Made by a program: the position numbers and the translations under genes
Part shown: positions 5,281-37,235 of the stretch, piece by piece
Layout of the letters: every line of letters begins with the position of its first letter
How positions within the stretch are numbered: the first letter of the stretch is position 1
Notes under the pieces: model-generated
The model's database searches: none
The model's input: the letters and a program-made list of their open reading frames with translations, nothing else
Told to the model about the DNA's origin: nothing
Assembly: GCF_010672455.1 (NCBI RefSeq)
Contig: NZ_JAAHGO010000009.1
Location: 19,414 to 58,519 of the forward strand
Source of the DNA: Okeania sp. SIO2C9
Lineage (GTDB): Bacteria; Cyanobacteriota; Cyanobacteriia; Cyanobacteriales; Microcoleaceae
Direction: 5' to 3'
DNA: 39,106 bases

Positions 5281-7167
5281 ATGAAAATTTCTTGGAGAAC
5301 AATTGTACTTTGGAGCTTACCAGCTCTAGTCATCGGTTTTTTTGTCTGGCAAGGGGCATTTTCCCCAACAGTAGCAAACATGGGTAGCAATACCGCCAGC
5401 ACCCGGATGAGCTATGGTCGATTCTTGGACTACTTACAAGCAGACCGAGTGACAAGTGTAGACCTTTATGAAGGTGGCCGTACAGCTATTGTTGAAGCAG
5501 TCGATCCAGAACTAGATAATCGGGTCCAACGATTACGAGTAGATTTACCAGCCAATTCTCCAGACCTAATTTCTCGTCTGCGAGAGGCAAATATCAGCTT
5601 TGACAGTCATCCCCCACGCAATGAAGGGGCGATATGGGGCCTATTAGGAAATTTGATTTTCCCAGTTTTATTGATTGTCGGTCTGTTTTTCCTATTCCGT
5701 CGCTCCAGTAATGTTCCTGGTGGTCCTGGACAAGCAATGAATTTTGGTAAGTCTAAAGCCCGCTTTTCCATGGAGGCGAAAACAGGTGTATTGTTTGATG
5801 ATGTGGCTGGAGTTGATGAGGCCAAAGAAGAATTACAAGAAGTTGTGACTTTCCTCAAAAAACCAGAAAGATTTACTGCAGTTGGAGCGCGAATTCCTAA
5901 AGGTGTGCTTTTAGTTGGTCCTCCGGGAACTGGTAAAACTTTGTTGGCCAAGGCGATCGCTGGTGAAGCTGGTGTTCCATTTTTCAGTATTTCTGGTTCG
6001 GAATTTGTGGAAATGTTTGTGGGTGTGGGTGCTTCCCGCGTTCGCGACCTCTTCAAAAAAGCTAAGGAAAACGCTCCATGTATTATCTTTATTGATGAAA
6101 TTGATGCGGTGGGTAGACAACGTGGTGCTGGTATCGGTGGTGGTAACGATGAAAGGGAACAAACTCTTAACCAATTGTTGACAGAGATGGATGGTTTTGA
6201 GGGTAACACTGGTATCATTATTATTGCTGCTACTAACCGCCCTGATGTATTAGATTCTGCATTGTTACGTCCAGGCAGGTTTGACCGTCAAGTTGGTGTT
6301 GATGCTCCAGACATTAAAGGTCGTTTGTCAATTCTGGAAGTTCATGCTCGCGACAAAAAGATAAGTGAAGAAGTATCTCTAGATGCGATCGCTCGTCGTA
6401 CTCCTGGTTTTACAGGTGCAGATTTGGCCAACTTGTTGAATGAAGCTGCAATTCTAACTGCTCGTCGTCGTAAAGAAGCAATTACCATGCCGGAAATTGA
6501 TGATGCTGTAGACCGGGTGGTTGCAGGTATGGAAGGAACTCCACTCATGGATGGTAAGAGCAAGCGATTAATTGGTTATCACGAAATTGGTCATGCGATA
6601 GTTGGTACTTTGATCAAAGACCATGACCCGGTGCAAAAAGTTACTTTGATTCCCCGTGGTCAAGCTCGTGGTCTCACCTGGTTTATGCCTAGTGAAGACC
6701 AAGGTTTAATCTCCAGGTCACAAATTTTGGCTCGTATTACTGGTGCTCTTGGTGGTCGCGCTGCTGAGAAGGTTATTTTTGGTGATGCTGAGGTGACGAC
6801 TGGTGCTGGTAATGACCTTCAACAGGTTACGGGGATGGCACGTCAAATGGTGACTCGTTATGGTATGTCTGATCTCGGTCCGATGTCTCTGGAAACTCAA
6901 CAAAGTGAAGTGTTTTTGGGTCGGGACTTAATGACTCGTTCAGAATATTCTGATGAGATCGCTTCTCGTATTGATGATCAAGTTCGCACTATTGTTGAAC
7001 ATTGTTATGAACACGCTTGTAATATAATGCGTGAGAACCGGGTTGTTATAGATCGTTTAGTTGATTTGCTCGTTGAGAAAGAAACTATTGATGGTGATGA
7101 GTTCCGACAAATTGTGGCTGAGTACACTAATGTTCCAGAAAAAGAACGTTATGTTCCGATCATGTAA
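5281..7167 (+). CDS. ftsH: ATP-dependent zinc metalloprotease FtsH
   Basis: A 628-residue membrane AAA+ protease, the usual length for cyanobacterial FtsH. In order: TM helix about 7-27; lumenal/periplasmic domain 35-115; TM helix about 118-141; AAA module with Walker A GPPGTGKT (213-220), Walker B IIFIDEID (268-275) and second region of homology through ATNRPD and the RPGRFDR arginines (about 317-336); peptidase domain with zinc site HEIGH (434-438) and third ligand D512. It degrades damaged membrane proteins; cyanobacterial paralogs form hexamers that remove photodamaged D1 from photosystem II. The sequence resembles the thylakoid FtsH2/slr0228 type, but the paralog assignment is by recall. 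AAAGAGG precedes the ATG by about 13 bases. Gene-free DNA flanks both sides, so it is probably monocistronic with a long leader. Confidence 0.97.
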
Positions 7168-7312
7168 TTAAAGAAGCGGTCAGCGCTCAGCAATCAGCAG
7201 TCAGCAAGATTATTTTTTTAACGTTTAGAAGGGGTTAAACCTCTCCTAAACAATTCTGCTTATAGAAGCAGCGGACTTTAAAAGCTGATAGCTAGTAGTT
7301 AACTTCCCTGGC

Positions 7313-7346
7313 GGGAAGTCCCGCGCTCTCCCGCAGGGGAGCGTCG
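7313..7346. repeat. GC-rich hairpins resembling IS200/IS605-type end sequence
   Basis: GCGGGA/CCCGC around AGT, directly followed by CGCTCTCCC/GGGGAGCG around GCA. This GC-rich block in AT-rich DNA resembles the hairpin-bearing region found 3' of tnpB in cyanobacterial IS200/IS605 elements. No transposase reading frame remains nearby. Confidence 0.35.
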
Positions 7347-7502
7347 TATGGGAAAGCCAAGGCCAAGATTCGGATACCTTCATAAGCTAAACGTTCATAT
7401 GCCCTTGACAAGCTAGGTACATTTTGTTATTGTAAGGCCCAACACAGGGGGAGGACATCACCTCTGTCTAAACAGCGGTCAGGGTTTCCCAGACTGAAGA
7501 AT

Positions 7503-7532
7503 CCCGCGTTGTCCCGTAAGGGCAACGTCGGG
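7503..7532. repeat. Second GC-rich hairpin, possible IS200/IS605 right-end remnant
   Basis: CCCGCGTTG pairs with CAACGTCGGG (one bulge) and an inner CCC/GGG closes a GTAA loop. It is preceded by CAGACTGAAGAATCCCGCG, a sequence type I associate with the right end of IS605-family elements in cyanobacteria. Together with 7313-7346 it may be a solo transposon end left after loss of tnpB. Confidence 0.35.
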
Positions 7533-7550
7533 AGTATGTCAATTTAACAG

Positions 7551-7564
7551 GACTTACGCACTCA
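7551..7564. repeat. Solo left end of family C element
   Basis: CAGGACTTACGCA, identical to the terminal repeat of C1 and C2; no matching right end was found within a few hundred bases. Confidence 0.5.
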
Positions 7565-7590
7565 AGCAGGTTTCTGTTTAGCAGACCAAA

Positions 7591-7618
7591 GTAGGGACGT
7601 TCCATGGAACGTCCCTAC
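7591..7618. repeat. Perfect 28-bp palindrome
   Basis: GTAGGGACGTTCCA is followed by its exact reverse complement. Related palindromes of the same length and outer sequence (GTAGGG..CCCTAC) occur at 13901-13928, 14140-14167, 21031-21056 and 21843-21868. Confidence 0.85.
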
Positions 7619-7714
7619 AAAGTTTTGGTTGTGATGATGTGATTCATCAATCTGAAAAGTGTTTTCAGGGAATGAAAAAAATAAACTTCAGCATTTCTAG
7701 TCTCTGGTTTTATA

Positions 7715-7819
7715 TACAGCAGATTTCGGGAAAATGATGTACAAGATAAATCGTGAAAATATTGTAGTGCGGGCAAGATGCACGCGCGGGTGTACCTCAT
7801 AACAACGGAAAGTGCTGTA
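7715..7819. mobile_element. Family E MITE-like element (copy E1)
   Basis: Ends TACAGC and GCTGTA, with a core (AATGATGTACAAGAT, GAAAATATTGTAGTGCGGG, GGTGTACCTCA) shared with the copy at 8166-8273. Taking CAGC...GCTG as the ends leaves TA on each side in both copies, consistent with a TA target as used by IS630/Tc1-type transposases. Confidence 0.65.
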
Positions 7820-8097
7820 TAAAACAGTTGAAAATTTGTCATTGCGAAGATAGGAAGTAATTTCCTAAACCCGTGAGATTGCTATATTCTAATTTGAGTT
7901 TGTCCATAATATTTTTGACAAGTTAGGTTAATCTTGCATTATAATTTTAATCTAAAATAACTGTTATTTTTCTTTGCGTTAAGAACTGCAAGAGTTGCTT
8001 AAGACAAATAATTTGGTATTAGAGATAAGTTGATTTTATTTATTTCCTTGGACAGATAAAATCGTCTCTTTCTAAATTATTCCTGATAACTTTTTAC

Positions 8098-8412
8098 GTA
8101 AGCATTCAGCTATTAGCTGTCAGCTATCAGCAACAAGACTCTCTCCTTAAGGATAACGTTTAAATTACAGCATATTTCTGGCAAATGATGTACAAGATGA
8201 ATAGTGAAAATATTGTAGTGCGGGCATCTTGCCCGCTTCGGGGTGTACCTCACGGGCAGCAGAAAGCGCTGTAATATAGATAGACTTTAAGGGCAAAGGA
8301 GTCAACTTTTGTAGTAAGAAAATTAATAAAGCTTTTATCGTTAACTAAAAGCACTCTTCTGATAGCTGATGGCTGACGGCTGTTTGCGCAGCATTCCGGA
8401 GGAAATGCTTAC
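8098..8412. mobile_element. Family D MITE-like element (copy D1) with 8-bp target duplication
   Basis: Starts GTAAGCATTCAGC and ends AATGCTTAC; flanked on both sides by the identical 8-mer CTTTTTAC (8090-8097 and 8413-8420). The interior matches D2 (30925-31122) and D3 (34320-34502). It is interrupted by a family E element and by a short insert (GCGCAGCATTCCGGAGGA) just inside the right end. No open frame of its own. Its right end supplies an in-frame ATG ahead of the aminopeptidase gene. Confidence 0.85.
8166..8273. mobile_element. Family E element (copy E2) nested inside D1
   Basis: The sequence between GTTTAAAT and AGACTTTAAGGG is uninterrupted in D2 and D3 but holds this 108-bp element in D1. 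It shares its core and TACAGC/GCTGTA ends with E1 at 7715-7819. Confidence 0.75.
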
Positions 8413-30924: not shown

Positions 30925-31122
30925 GTAAGCATTCAGCTATCAGCTATCAGCAACAAGATTCTATCTTATGGGACAGTGTTTAAATTAACAACTGACTTTA
31001 AGGGTAAGGGAGGGAATTTTTGCAGTAAGACAATTAATAAAGCTTTTATCCTAAACTAAAAGCAATAGCTGATAGCTGATGGCTGACCGCTGTTTGCGCA
31101 GCATTCCGGAGGAAATGCTTAC
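30925..31122. mobile_element. Family D MITE-like element (copy D2)
   Basis: Ends GTAAGCATTCAGC and AATGCTTAC; flanks CATTTATG and CATTTATC (7 of 8 identical). It carries the short GCGCAGCATTCCGGAGGA insert at the same place as D1 but lacks the nested family E element. Confidence 0.8.
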
Positions 31123-34083: not shown

Positions 34084-34319
34084 AATTTGATATCCTTTGA
34101 TTGATATTTTAATTATTTTGTTGAGTAAATTATAACAAAGTATGAACAAACTCAACTATTTAGATTCTTGTTGAGGGAACATATTTATTTAGGTAGGAGG
34201 TTTTCTTGAACCAACTTGAAAAATAAAGTTTCAAGAACAGTCAAATCTTTAGTTATTAAATAAAAATTTTCTCTACATCCTATTTAGGTTTCCGCTTTTG
34301 CGCTATACCAATTTATAAT

Positions 34320-34502
34320 GTAAGCATTCAGCTATTAGCTGTCAGCTATCAGCAACAAAGCTCTCTCATATAGAACATTGTTTAAATTTCAATAGACTTT
34401 AAGGGCAAATAAGCCAACTTTTTTAGTAAGACAATTAATAAAGCTTTTATCCTAAATTAAAAGCAATAGCTGATAGCTGATGGCTGACGGCTGAATGCTT
34501 AC
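34320..34502. mobile_element. Family D MITE-like element (copy D3) with perfect 8-bp duplication
   Basis: GTAAGCATTCAGC at the left, GGCTGAATGCTTAC at the right, flanked by TTTATAAT on both sides (34312-34319, 34503-34510). This is the simplest copy, without the inserts of D1 and D2. Confidence 0.88.
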
Positions 34503-34556
34503 TTTATAATTTCTTTGAATCTTAAGTTATAGAAAATAATTAACCACTACAATTAA

Positions 34557-37154
34557 TTAATCATTCTTATATTTTGTACCTTTTCTTCTATTCGCATTTT
34601 TATGAGTAATTTGTAAGTTATCAATAGAATCTAATCCTCCTATGGCTAATGGTTTTTTATGATCTACTTCAATTTCATCTCCCATAAACAGAGGGTTTCC
34701 AGATATAGGACATCTATTTCCTTGTTTTTTTATTAACATTTCTTTCTCTGAATCAAATAATTTGAGTTTTCTTTTATCTTGCTTGTACTTTTTTTGAAAT
34801 TTTTCTATTTCTTTTTTAAATTTATTCTCATCATAATTACTATCTTGTGTATTTTTCATTCTATAGAATAAATCTTTAAGTTCCTGTTTTATTTCTTGTC
34901 TATAGTGCCTTACCATTTCATAATTTAGAGGAATAAATACATACCAGAGTATATAAAAATCTTGTTTAGTTCTTCTAAAATTACGACTTCCCTTACGAGT
35001 TTTATATAGAGAGTCTAATTCATCTTTCAAATATGCATCTAGCTGATTTTTATCTATATCTTCATCAAGCAACACACATCTGACTTTTGATATAAATTGT
35101 TCCACCATTGTAATGCTCTTCATAAATAGTTTCTTATCTTCCTGATTTTCAGAAACTTTTGTCAAGACTAAATTAATATCTTTTATTACACCTAATCTGA
35201 GATTAATTCTATTATTTTGTTTATATATTTTGAGAAACTTTTCTATATTTTGCTCTTGAAGCTGTTTAAACTCAAAATATACTAAAGATGTATATAGTTC
35301 CTCATTCTCCATCCGGTCACGATCTTTAGGTTGCTTGGCTAATTTTAAATGAAACCATTCTCGATGTTTACTAACATTATCTTTGATTTTTGTAATTACT
35401 TCGCGTTCTGCCCAAGAGTTCCACATTTCAAAGGAATTTTCTTTGATAGGATAAGGCTTATTATTTAATCTAACAAATAAATCTACCGGATCGAATTCTG
35501 TATTTAGGCGTTCTTCTATCTCAACAACAAATAGTTCAAAATCTAAAATTTTATCTTGTAATGCAGGTTCTAAAGCTTCAAATTTTTTATTCTTTAAGTC
35601 TTTAAGAATTCGTAAATCTTTCAGGGCAAAATTTGAGTTTTTCGTGCTACATTTATTATTTTCCTCATCAACATATTCTTTTCCCAGGTATCCTAAAATT
35701 GTTAAAAGTCTTTGCTGACCATCAATAACTTCTGAAATTCCATCTAAACGTTTAAAAATAAAAATAGGTGGTAAATTAATACCTAACAAAATACTTTCTA
35801 TGATAGCTGATGCTTTCGGCAAATTAATTACTTCCGATCTCTGATAAGAAGGTCTAACTAAAAATTTCTTACGTTCCATCACTCGTGCTATATCGTCTAT
35901 TGAGTTTCGGGATGGATCTGGCTTAGTTACTCTTAAAGATTCAAGCTCACTGAGTTTAGTAACAGTATCTTCATCCTCTGTTTGGCGAAGTTTACTCAGT
36001 TCTTTTGTTTTCTTATCACTACCTTCATAATAAACTTGTAATTTAATTTTAAATTCTGTTTCAAACAGTTTAGCTGTAAAAGTATATCGTTCTTGTATTT
36101 GTTTATAATTCCCGTCGCTATATTTTTGGATATTATTTGATATTTTTTTACTTACTCTCTTTAACAAAGCTTTATTTTTTAGTTTAGATAAATCTAGTTT
36201 TTCATTCTCTAAAATTAGCATACTCCATAGTAAACATTCAAAAACTAACTGATTGTTTTTGAAATTGAATTCTATAAATATTTGCTTGAATGATTCTACA
36301 ATTTTAACTTTCTCAATAAATGACTGACATAGTGGCTCTGGATCGGGATTTTGATCTGATAAGTATTCAAATAATTTTTCTAAAGTTTCTGTCCTAGAAT
36401 TACCCCAAGAATATTGCTTTATAGGAAACATTTTTAAAACTAAATGTCGTCTAATAAACTGTAAAATTTTTCCTCTGTCATGTTCTATGCTATTATTGCC
36501 ACTTCTTTTAAAGAACAAATCATACATTAATTGTTCAAAATCTGGTTCTTGCGTTAAAAGATTTTTAAAATACTGATAAATTGGATCGTTATCATAAACA
36601 GCATTGTCAATTTCTGGTGTTGTTAAAGGCGTTATACCTGAATTATATCTAGCAAAGATTTCTTTTTTGATTTTATCTTCTAATAGAGAGTCTAACTTTC
36701 GTTCATTAACAATTTCAAATTCAACGATTCTAATTTTTGCATCTAAAAATAAATCTATTATGCTAGTAGTTTCATTATTTTCAAAAAGGGATTTGTATCT
36801 ACTTCTTGAGAGTTGTTTTAAAGCAGATAACCCCTTTTTAGTTAATTGCAGTTCATTATCCTTAAATCTCTTAATCGTTTCAAACCTTTGTCTTCTATCA
36901 ATAACTTCTATTTTCTCTGCATTATTGAAAAATATTAAAGGAGGAATTTCTGTTCCTAGAAGTATGCTCTCAATAAAATATGAAGCTTTGTCATCATCCC
37001 AAACATAATTTCTTTGATAGTAAGGTTTATAATCAATACGCCTTAAAAGGCGATCGCTAAATAGAGTTTCTATTGATTTTGAATAAGTCTCTATTTTCAG
37101 ATGGTCTTTGAATATACGTTCAAAATCTTCCGGTTGTAAAAATAAATTGCTCAA
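34557..37154 (-). CDS. Tandem DUF262-DUF262-HNH protein, candidate defence nuclease
   Basis: An 865-residue protein starting at TTG (37152-37154) with AAGGAG about 10 bases upstream. Domain 1 (about 25-200): YQRNYVWDDDKASYFIESIL and, at the DGQQR position, D86-R87-R88-Q89-R90, so the motif is altered. Helical middle (about 200-400). Domain 2 (about 415-600): SYQRSEVINLPKASAIIESI and canonical D478-GQQR. A further helical region follows, then a C-terminal HNH nuclease (about 810-860): NRCPISG (C815), EVDHKKPLAIGG (D831-H832), DNLQITHKNANRRKG (N846, N855). DUF262 is the NTP-using domain of GmrS and SspE, which restrict modified or phosphorothioated phage DNA with an HNH/DUF1524 nuclease. Two DUF262 domains with one degenerate and an HNH in one chain is unusual. 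A defence role is inferred; the substrate is unknown. Very AT-rich compared with its neighbours, which suggests transfer. Confidence 0.8.
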   Translation of the reverse strand: MSNLFLQPEDFERIFKDHLKIETYSKSIETLFSDRLLRRIDYKPYYQRNYVWDDDKASYFIESILLGTEIPPLIFFNNAEKIEVIDRRQRFETIKRFKDNELQLTKKGLSALKQLSRSRYKSLFENNETTSIIDLFLDAKIRIVEFEIVNERKLDSLLEDKIKKEIFARYNSGITPLTTPEIDNAVYDNDPIYQYFKNLLTQEPDFEQLMYDLFFKRSGNNSIEHDRGKILQFIRRHLVLKMFPIKQYSWGNSRTETLEKLFEYLSDQNPDPEPLCQSFIEKVKIVESFKQIFIEFNFKNNQLVFECLLWSMLILENEKLDLSKLKNKALLKRVSKKISNNIQKYSDGNYKQIQERYTFTAKLFETEFKIKLQVYYEGSDKKTKELSKLRQTEDEDTVTKLSELESLRVTKPDPSRNSIDDIARVMERKKFLVRPSYQRSEVINLPKASAIIESILLGINLPPIFIFKRLDGISEVIDGQQRLLTILGYLGKEYVDEENNKCSTKNSNFALKDLRILKDLKNKKFEALEPALQDKILDFELFVVEIEERLNTEFDPVDLFVRLNNKPYPIKENSFEMWNSWAEREVITKIKDNVSKHREWFHLKLAKQPKDRDRMENEELYTSLVYFEFKQLQEQNIEKFLKIYKQNNRINLRLGVIKDINLVLTKVSENQEDKKLFMKSITMVEQFISKVRCVLLDEDIDKNQLDAYLKDELDSLYKTRKGSRNFRRTKQDFYILWYVFIPLNYEMVRHYRQEIKQELKDLFYRMKNTQDSNYDENKFKKEIEKFQKKYKQDKRKLKLFDSEKEMLIKKQGNRCPISGNPLFMGDEIEVDHKKPLAIGGLDSIDNLQITHKNANRRKGTKYKND

Positions 37155-37235
37155 TTTAAAAACTTCTCCTTATTCGACTTATTTTTCTCAAATATTCAAC
37201 TAACTGTTCAGAGAATAAAATTCATCATCAAAGAT

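Follow-up and report, generated by a model that had tools for sequence, protein, structure and literature searches.

A candidate single-chain anti-phage restriction protein with two DUF262 domains and an HNH nuclease domain from Okeania sp. SIO2C9

Results and Discussion

The window analyzed here, a stretch of 39,106 nucleotides from the 10.9 Mb genome of Okeania sp. SIO2C9, contains a gene (34557..37154, minus strand) for an 865-residue protein, P0001, in which two DUF262 domains are followed by a C-terminal HNH nuclease domain. By analogy with known DUF262 systems, P0001 is probably a GmrSD-like restriction protein that acts against phages as a single chain and whose two DUF262 domains would both gate an exchangeable effector, a reading that we hold with moderate confidence. 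The family to which it belongs is rare and patchy (17 near-complete members were aligned), and the nearest relatives of the protein are likewise from the cyanobacterium Okeania (L006, 85%; L007, 82%). More interesting than P0001 on its own is the broader picture of a rare family whose tandem-DUF262 core occurs with different effectors. In the portions of the open PMC literature that were retrieved, with subscription papers and preprints outside its scope, no description of a single-chain DUF262-DUF262-HNH protein was found, and the phrase "two DUF262" occurs in no paper of the open PMC library.

Domain architecture

The domain organization is supported by several profile searches. PF03235 (GmrSD_N/DUF262) matches two stretches of P0001 in Pfam (whole-protein E = 3.8e-26), and a search of the protein's own genome scored the two domains separately at 62.4 and 52.8 bits against a cut-off of 33.2. 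Both searches agree with a preliminary description of the sequence, which had recognized two DUF262-like domains and a C-terminal HNH domain within the 865 residues and had correctly placed their motifs (DRRQR at residue 86, DGQQR at 478, CPIS at 815-818, H832 and THKNAN). Domain 1 spans residues 29-185 (36600..37070, minus strand, as for all parts of the gene) and is followed by a tail, residues 201-395 (35970..36554), that is alpha-helical in both structure models. Domain 2 covers residues from about 429 to 566 (35457..35870); its tail, residues 601-790 (34785..35354), is mostly alpha-helical in the full-length model. When the two halves were compared with hhalign, they matched with a probability of 99.3 (E 4e-20, 30% identity over 174 columns).

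The HNH nuclease domain occupies residues 817-861 (34572..34706), including D831, H832, N846 and N855. It was detected with PF13395 (HNH_4; 26.7 bits, cut-off 22) and PF01844 (HNH; 24.7 bits, cut-off 21.4), and profile searches with this region matched a maturase (E 8e-5), Cas9 HNH domains (best E 2e-4) and the structure 4h9d. An IscB-type HNH was rejected, as NF040563 scored 21.2 bits against a cut-off of 175 and did so over the HNH region only.

An AlphaFold2 model of module 1 (residues 1-395, 10 sequences) has a mean pLDDT of 80. Its best matches in BFVD are DUF262/GmrSD_N models of viral proteins (best E 1.2e-9, 16 matches below 0.001), and so the N-terminal region, whose fold the preliminary description had left to be checked, is modeled as a DUF262 domain. 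Matches of the same model in the PDB are weak (ParB-CDP, probability 0.96, E 0.03; sulfiredoxin, probability 0.89, E 0.94).

Conservation and asymmetry of the DUF262 domains

DUF262 domains carry the signature motifs QR, DGxQR and FxxxN (PMC11411939, PMC12137116). These were compared in an alignment of 19 rows, comprising the 17 near-complete members and two partial ones (L007, L022), of which 18 hold domain 1. QR and FxxxN are kept in 18/18 rows for domain 1 and 19/19 for domain 2. The DGQQR motif of domain 2 (residues 478-482; 35709..35723) is invariant in 19/19 rows. In domain 1, the corresponding motif (residues 86-90; 36885..36899) is DG[R/K]QR in 17/18 rows (16 DGRQR, one DGKQR), and DRRQR occurs in the window only. 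The final Arg of the motif, which SspE and DndI are described as requiring for NTP hydrolysis, is present in both domains, the window copy included. Across all fetched loci, the 19 distinct DGRQR motifs all lie in domain 1 of the tandem family, while DGQQR was found 92 times; DGKQR was found twice, in a family member (L027) and in a 190-aa viral ORF (L036).

These patterns indicate that the two DUF262 domains are probably not equivalent, with a change from Gln to Arg or Lys in domain 1 throughout the family. The conserved Arg/Lys predicts that domain 1 handles nucleotides unlike domain 2. The preliminary description had suspected an asymmetry, which this family-wide difference upholds, but had derived it from DRRQR and proposed that domain 1 had become a sensor or regulatory copy. 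That derivation fails: Gly87 is lost in the window only, and domain 1 is under constraint similar to that of domain 2, for which reasons we rejected the idea of a degenerate copy. Because DRRQR is private to the window and DG[R/K]QR prevails elsewhere, domain 1 is best regarded as a conserved and distinct partner of domain 2. Since the order of the fused domains is fixed and their motif difference is conserved, single substitutions within one chain would allow a test of how labor is divided between them.

Pairwise dN/dS ratios between the window gene and L006 (Nei-Gojobori, without error bars) are 0.155 for residues 1-200, 0.106 for residues 406-600 and 0.137 for residues 791-865, with 0.219 and 0.25 in the successive intervening segments and 0.192 overall; comparisons with L028 are near or past synonymous saturation. 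On these ratios, every part of the protein appears to be under purifying selection and none looks released. Within the HNH domain, D831, H832, N846, H851, N855 and K858 are kept in 12/12 HNH rows. C815, C818 and C854 are all Cys in 4/12 rows, the remaining eight forming one clade (95/93). The zinc knuckle is thus reduced, as the preliminary description had noted, but this is common to a clade of eight of the 12 rows and not a peculiarity of the window.

The relationship between the two domains was explored with a quick tree of 14 domain 1 segments, 14 domain 2 segments and 45 segments of stand-alone DUF262 proteins (81 were thinned to 58, of which the first 45 were used), in which branches are long and placement is unsure. 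Domain 1 and domain 2 segments fall into one clade each (SH-aLRT 100), the two clades not being sisters, and domain 1 groups with seven stand-alone proteins (90). A recent internal duplication was therefore discarded as a simple account. Because the two clades are separate and non-sister, the tree suggests instead that DUF262 proteins of two kinds became partners long ago, whether as an ancient pair or by fusion, and now reside in one chain.

Comparison with known systems and proposed mechanism

Comparisons with known systems draw on portions of PMC4619093, PMC12409362, PMC10952713, PMC3710099, PMC12839542, PMC11662687, PMC13251355, PMC12137116, PMC11411939 and PMC8565348. Judged by analogy, TgvAB and GrwAB come closest among the systems that have been tested. 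As in P0001, these have two DUF262 domains, only one of which is followed by a His-Me/HNH nuclease, and QR, DGxQR and FxxxN in both; this likeness is taken from published descriptions and not from an alignment of their sequences with P0001. They differ in being encoded by two adjacent genes and in carrying DUF1524, whereas P0001 is a single DUF262-DUF262-HNH chain with an HNH_4/HNH domain and DG[R/K]QR in the domain 1 position of the family. Both DUF262 proteins are required in TgvAB and GrwAB, and mutation of the NTPase motif in either abolishes defence (PMC11411939, PMC12137116). The need for two partner proteins has been called unusual, with the comment that "this difference warrants further investigation" (PMC12409362).

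In SspE, DndI and BrxU, control of the nuclease domain lies with an N-terminal domain that binds and hydrolyzes NTP. This domain also senses DNA modification in SspE and DndI, and in DndI it lowers DNA binding by the nuclease domain, an effect governed by ATP hydrolysis. These proteins and Eco94GmrSD resemble P0001 in coupling a DUF262 NTPase to a C-terminal HNH-type nuclease, but have one DUF262 domain and DUF1524. The accessible text of a survey of 1119 GmrSD homologues mentions further domains added to them, a second DUF262 not being one of these (PMC4619093).

From these analogies we infer NTP hydrolysis, domain pairing and gating in P0001. Since N-terminal NTPase domains control the nuclease in SspE, DndI and BrxU, and since TgvAB and GrwAB need two DUF262 proteins, we propose that the two DUF262 domains would form an intramolecular pair within one chain and that this pair would gate the HNH nuclease. 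The preliminary description had assigned the driving of the nuclease to domain 2. QR, DGxQR and FxxxN are kept in both domains of the family, and a model in which domain 2 alone drives the nuclease is less likely because mutating either NTPase motif abolishes TgvAB and GrwAB defence.

The PADLOC model for NsnA matches P0001 with E 3.1e-54, best over residues 15-366, and in L011 it matches best over the second half. Each half of P0001 resembles a whole NsnA-like module, while the NsnA and PD-T4-2_A models, with 385 and 363 positions, have the length of a protein with one DUF262 domain. The NsnA model is unspecific, as it also matches the stand-alone DUF262 proteins L002 and L003. It presumably belongs to the Menshen system (NsnABC). 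In Menshen, the partner of DUF262 is an OLD nuclease (PMC10952713). The window gene provides an NsnA-like protein without an adjacent OLD-family nuclease, its flanks being a pyridine-nucleotide oxidoreductase gene and a 2Fe-2S ferredoxin-like gene.

Effectors associated with the tandem core

An HNH domain is fused to the tandem core in 10 of the 17 near-complete members, as judged from the aligned motif and, for P0001 and P0008, from Pfam. The DUF262-DUF262-HNH order, whose persistence among homologues the preliminary description had wished to see checked, thus holds for these ten but not for the others, which have no HNH or no assigned effector. One of the HNH-bearing proteins (L044, 7435-10746) has three N-terminal DUF4379 treble-clef repeats ahead of the DUF262-DUF262-HNH arrangement.

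The other members include four (L008, L009, L010, L040) that end without HNH and form one clade (100/98). Each is followed downstream by a PIN_8 gene, as is the core of the split locus L031 (PF18476, E 1.6e-53 to 1.2e-66). In L008 and L010 the PIN_8 gene and the core share 4 nt, and in L009 they are 13 nt apart. L033, which branches beside an HNH clade (94/95), likewise has no HNH and is preceded by a putAbiC gene (E 1.3e-18) whose end overlaps the start of the L033 ORF. No effector was assigned in two members: L011, with convergent Septu-like genes, and L056, which adjoins an Abi_C ORF and whose contig ends 411 bases downstream. A search of the open PMC literature for PIN_8/DUF4935 returned, among the matches listed, plant papers.

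In these relatives, the same tandem switch would control an output encoded by the neighboring gene, with the PIN_8 nuclease or the putAbiC membrane protein as putative effector. It is conceivable, though we put this forward tentatively, that the proteins make up a modular defence family, of which the searched literature yielded no description, in which an asymmetric fused DUF262 pair (DG[R/K]QR plus DGQQR) stays constant and HNH, PIN_8 or putAbiC effectors are plugged in by lineage. If so, the output would change from cleavage of DNA to, possibly, that of RNA or an attack on the membrane, with the logic of sensing unchanged. Such variation of the effector around one sensor would further make it possible to separate sensing and killing in DUF262 systems.

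The same partners raise the alternative that the tandem DUF262 protein is an abortive-infection switch that would sense infection and through which the HNH, PIN_8 or putAbiC effector would damage the nucleic acids or membrane of the host and kill the cell. PIN_8 and putAbiC are not typical effectors of DNA restriction, an Abi_C ORF stands beside L056, and Menshen offers a link between DUF262 and the OLD nuclease (PMC10952713). The HNH domains of SspE, DndI, BrxU, TgvAB and GrwAB are described, however, as acting on phage or foreign DNA, and we consider cell suicide unlikely, if worth keeping in mind, compared with restriction of incoming DNA.

Distribution and genomic context

The tandem core was sought with profiles in several sets of genomes. 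In the window's phylum, 3/385 other genomes have it (an intact copy, a copy interrupted by an in-frame stop and a fragment), as do 5/394 other genomes of Bacteroidota, the phylum of Confluentibacter. The phyla to which Glaciecola and Brocadia belong gave none (0/397 and 0/293 other genomes). A second profile matched 4/194 other genomes of the window's order, two of them new, and one new member among 123 genomes of the order of G672. Within the genus, the gene is carried by 2/5 genomes and had no match in the other three, in two of which about 4 kb of other genes occupy the same interval. Two near-complete members (L033, L056) lie on viral contigs; two further viral scans yielded no new family member, their sole match (L153) being on the same contig as L056. 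Broken or truncated copies are also found, and L012, L013/L031, L029 and L030, which are broken, split or fragmentary, were kept out of the family tree.

Several relatives are carried by mobile or defence-related regions. L033 lies between a replication-nicking gene (phrog_91) and a portal gene, in what we take to be a P2-like prophage; that position in P2 is a hotspot for accessory genes. The protein of L033 has partial matches (20% coverage) in 9 Moraxella phages. L137 is situated 2.6 kb from a tyrosine integrase gene adjoining tRNA-Ser(cga), with a resolvase also near, and L056 has recombinase-like ORFs nearby (by eye). L011 adjoins PtuA/PtuB-like (Septu-like) genes, L040 and L043 are near GmrSD or other DUF262 genes, L135 adjoins a NERD-UvrD helicase gene, and L044 is near a MazF-like gene. 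The prophage, integrase, Septu-like and DUF262/GmrSD contexts, together with the truncated plasmid copy L022 and carriage by 2/5 genomes of the genus, accord with the original proposal of a GmrSD-like, probably anti-phage accessory nuclease. By analogy with the known systems, an anti-phage function is likely.

Least probable of the readings considered is a nuclease for housekeeping or DNA repair that has no part in phage defence. It would fit the purifying selection and the five of ten near-complete HNH-fused loci (the window, L006, L028, L041, L042) that stand among ordinary-looking genes. Prophage and integrative-element carriage, the several broken or truncated copies and the patchy distribution given above argue against it; confinement of homologues to housekeeping genes, the outcome that the preliminary description had named as fatal to its proposal, was thus not observed.

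We likewise regard as very improbable an ordinary type II restriction enzyme whose methyltransferase is encoded elsewhere in the genome. The PADLOC model REase_II matches domain 2 (E 7e-13), and on a 353-kb viral contig (L100, 6784-8999) a 365-aa single-DUF262 protein with an HNH-like end adjoins a methylase-like ORF (both by eye). Set against this, no intact methyltransferase gene was recognized beside the ten near-complete HNH-fused genes (ORF tables read by eye, few scanned), and a type ISP/IIG enzyme is represented in the window by a fragment 2.5 kb away.

Restriction by P0001 is to be weighed against a number of observations that speak the other way. The five ordinary-looking loci apply here as well; they were called by eye from ORF tables except for the window, and L136 likewise was not scanned. 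The neighborhood of L006, for example, looks ordinary apart from a transposon-like ORF. In the window, for which PADLOC was run on 10 of the 22 ORFs of at least 100 aa, the sole restriction-type match is a decayed fragment, a 161-aa restriction-modification gene remnant about 2.5 kb from the P0001 gene (31595-32080, plus strand). This matches the Type ISP C-terminal domain over 46 residues and PADLOC type IIG/I restriction-methylase models at positions 1159-1300 of 1646. Although the gene is accessory, its window does not qualify as a defence island; mobile or defence-related surroundings are seen in part of the family. P0001 had one match, truncated (L022), among 72,556 plasmid records (E 1e-20), and no match among 50,697 phage records (E 1e-8).

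Points of the same kind arise from the protein itself. P0001 has the N-terminal DUF262 of the GmrSD family, in two copies, and DGQQR in domain 2, but PF07510 (DUF1524) has no match in it up to E = 1, whereas L001 and P0012 do score; because it has no DUF1524 domain, P0001 falls outside the family as defined. The SspE profile matches with E 1.8e-4 over a best stretch of 27 residues, short of full-length similarity. DndI and SspE were not listed by sequence searches with P0001 or the family profiles, whereas a GmrSD protein of the same genome, used as a control, finds DndI (9jfl, E 4e-14) and, weakly, SspE (E 0.14) in the same PDB copy. The full-length model has a pLDDT of 70 and an HNH tail below 50, which is undefined; it has no significant PDB match among the best 50 of 123 matches, so that the fold search is uninformative. 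Solved DUF262 enzymes are absent from the Foldseek lists (the best 50 of 123 matches, and 46 listed), in which no match falls below 0.001. Any dependence on a ligand or on DNA modification is proposed by analogy with known DUF262 systems. The HNH character needs 3-4 changes on the bootstrap trees. For the window copy in particular, the change of Gly87 to Arg may weaken domain 1, or may be a sequence error.

Gene start, base composition and flanking features

The TTG start of the gene falls in the same alignment column as the Met of an intact homologue (L028). An AGGAG sequence resembling a ribosome-binding site lies 11 nt upstream (37166..37170, minus strand), in agreement with the start and ribosome-binding site reported in the preliminary description. 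The same account took the AT-rich composition as a sign of accessory DNA. The gene is indeed AT-rich, with 27.9% GC against 36.6% for the window, but its GC content at third codon positions (0.19) equals that of the neighboring cysK (0.19), the difference residing in codon positions 1 and 2. The low GC is therefore an effect of amino-acid make-up.

A mobile element had also been reported at the 3' side of the gene. No transposase ORF was recognized there, and the claim was reduced to a palindromic, MITE-like repeat (34310-34512) with 44-nt arms of 84% identity. Similar repeats occur in the window at about 8116-8380 and 30929-31090, and a 16-mer from the core of the repeat has 333 matches in the genome (at most one mismatch) compared with 0 for a reversed control. 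As copies of the repeat are scattered over the whole genome and occur elsewhere in the window, a role as carrier of the gene was not supported.

Two other ORFs of the window gave PADLOC matches. An FtsH ORF (5281-7167) was rejected as a defence gene, since it matches IetA, TRIP13 and mad8 through the shared AAA domain, and a histidine kinase has weak matches to SduA and PDC-M60B over its receiver region.

Some further observations concern relatives and the remainder of the contig. In L007, about three tandem copies of a 308-bp sequence (1655-2565) lie around the end of the ferredoxin gene and the start of the DUF262 gene, which is disrupted there; they adjoin an assembly gap and may be a real array or an artefact. 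In L056, a 459-aa ORF (6556-7935) upstream of the tandem-DUF262 gene has weak mad2 and PD-Lambda-5_A matches and no Pfam match. On the contig of the window, outside the window itself, an AAA ORF of restriction type is located about 47 kb from the P0001 gene. About 41 kb away, also outside the window, a stand-alone DUF262 protein with DGTQR (L151, 11278-13076) adjoins a HEPN_MAE_28990 gene, and the two possibly form a pair; an operon of MAE_28990 HEPN with a ParB-type gene is already listed in PMC3710099.

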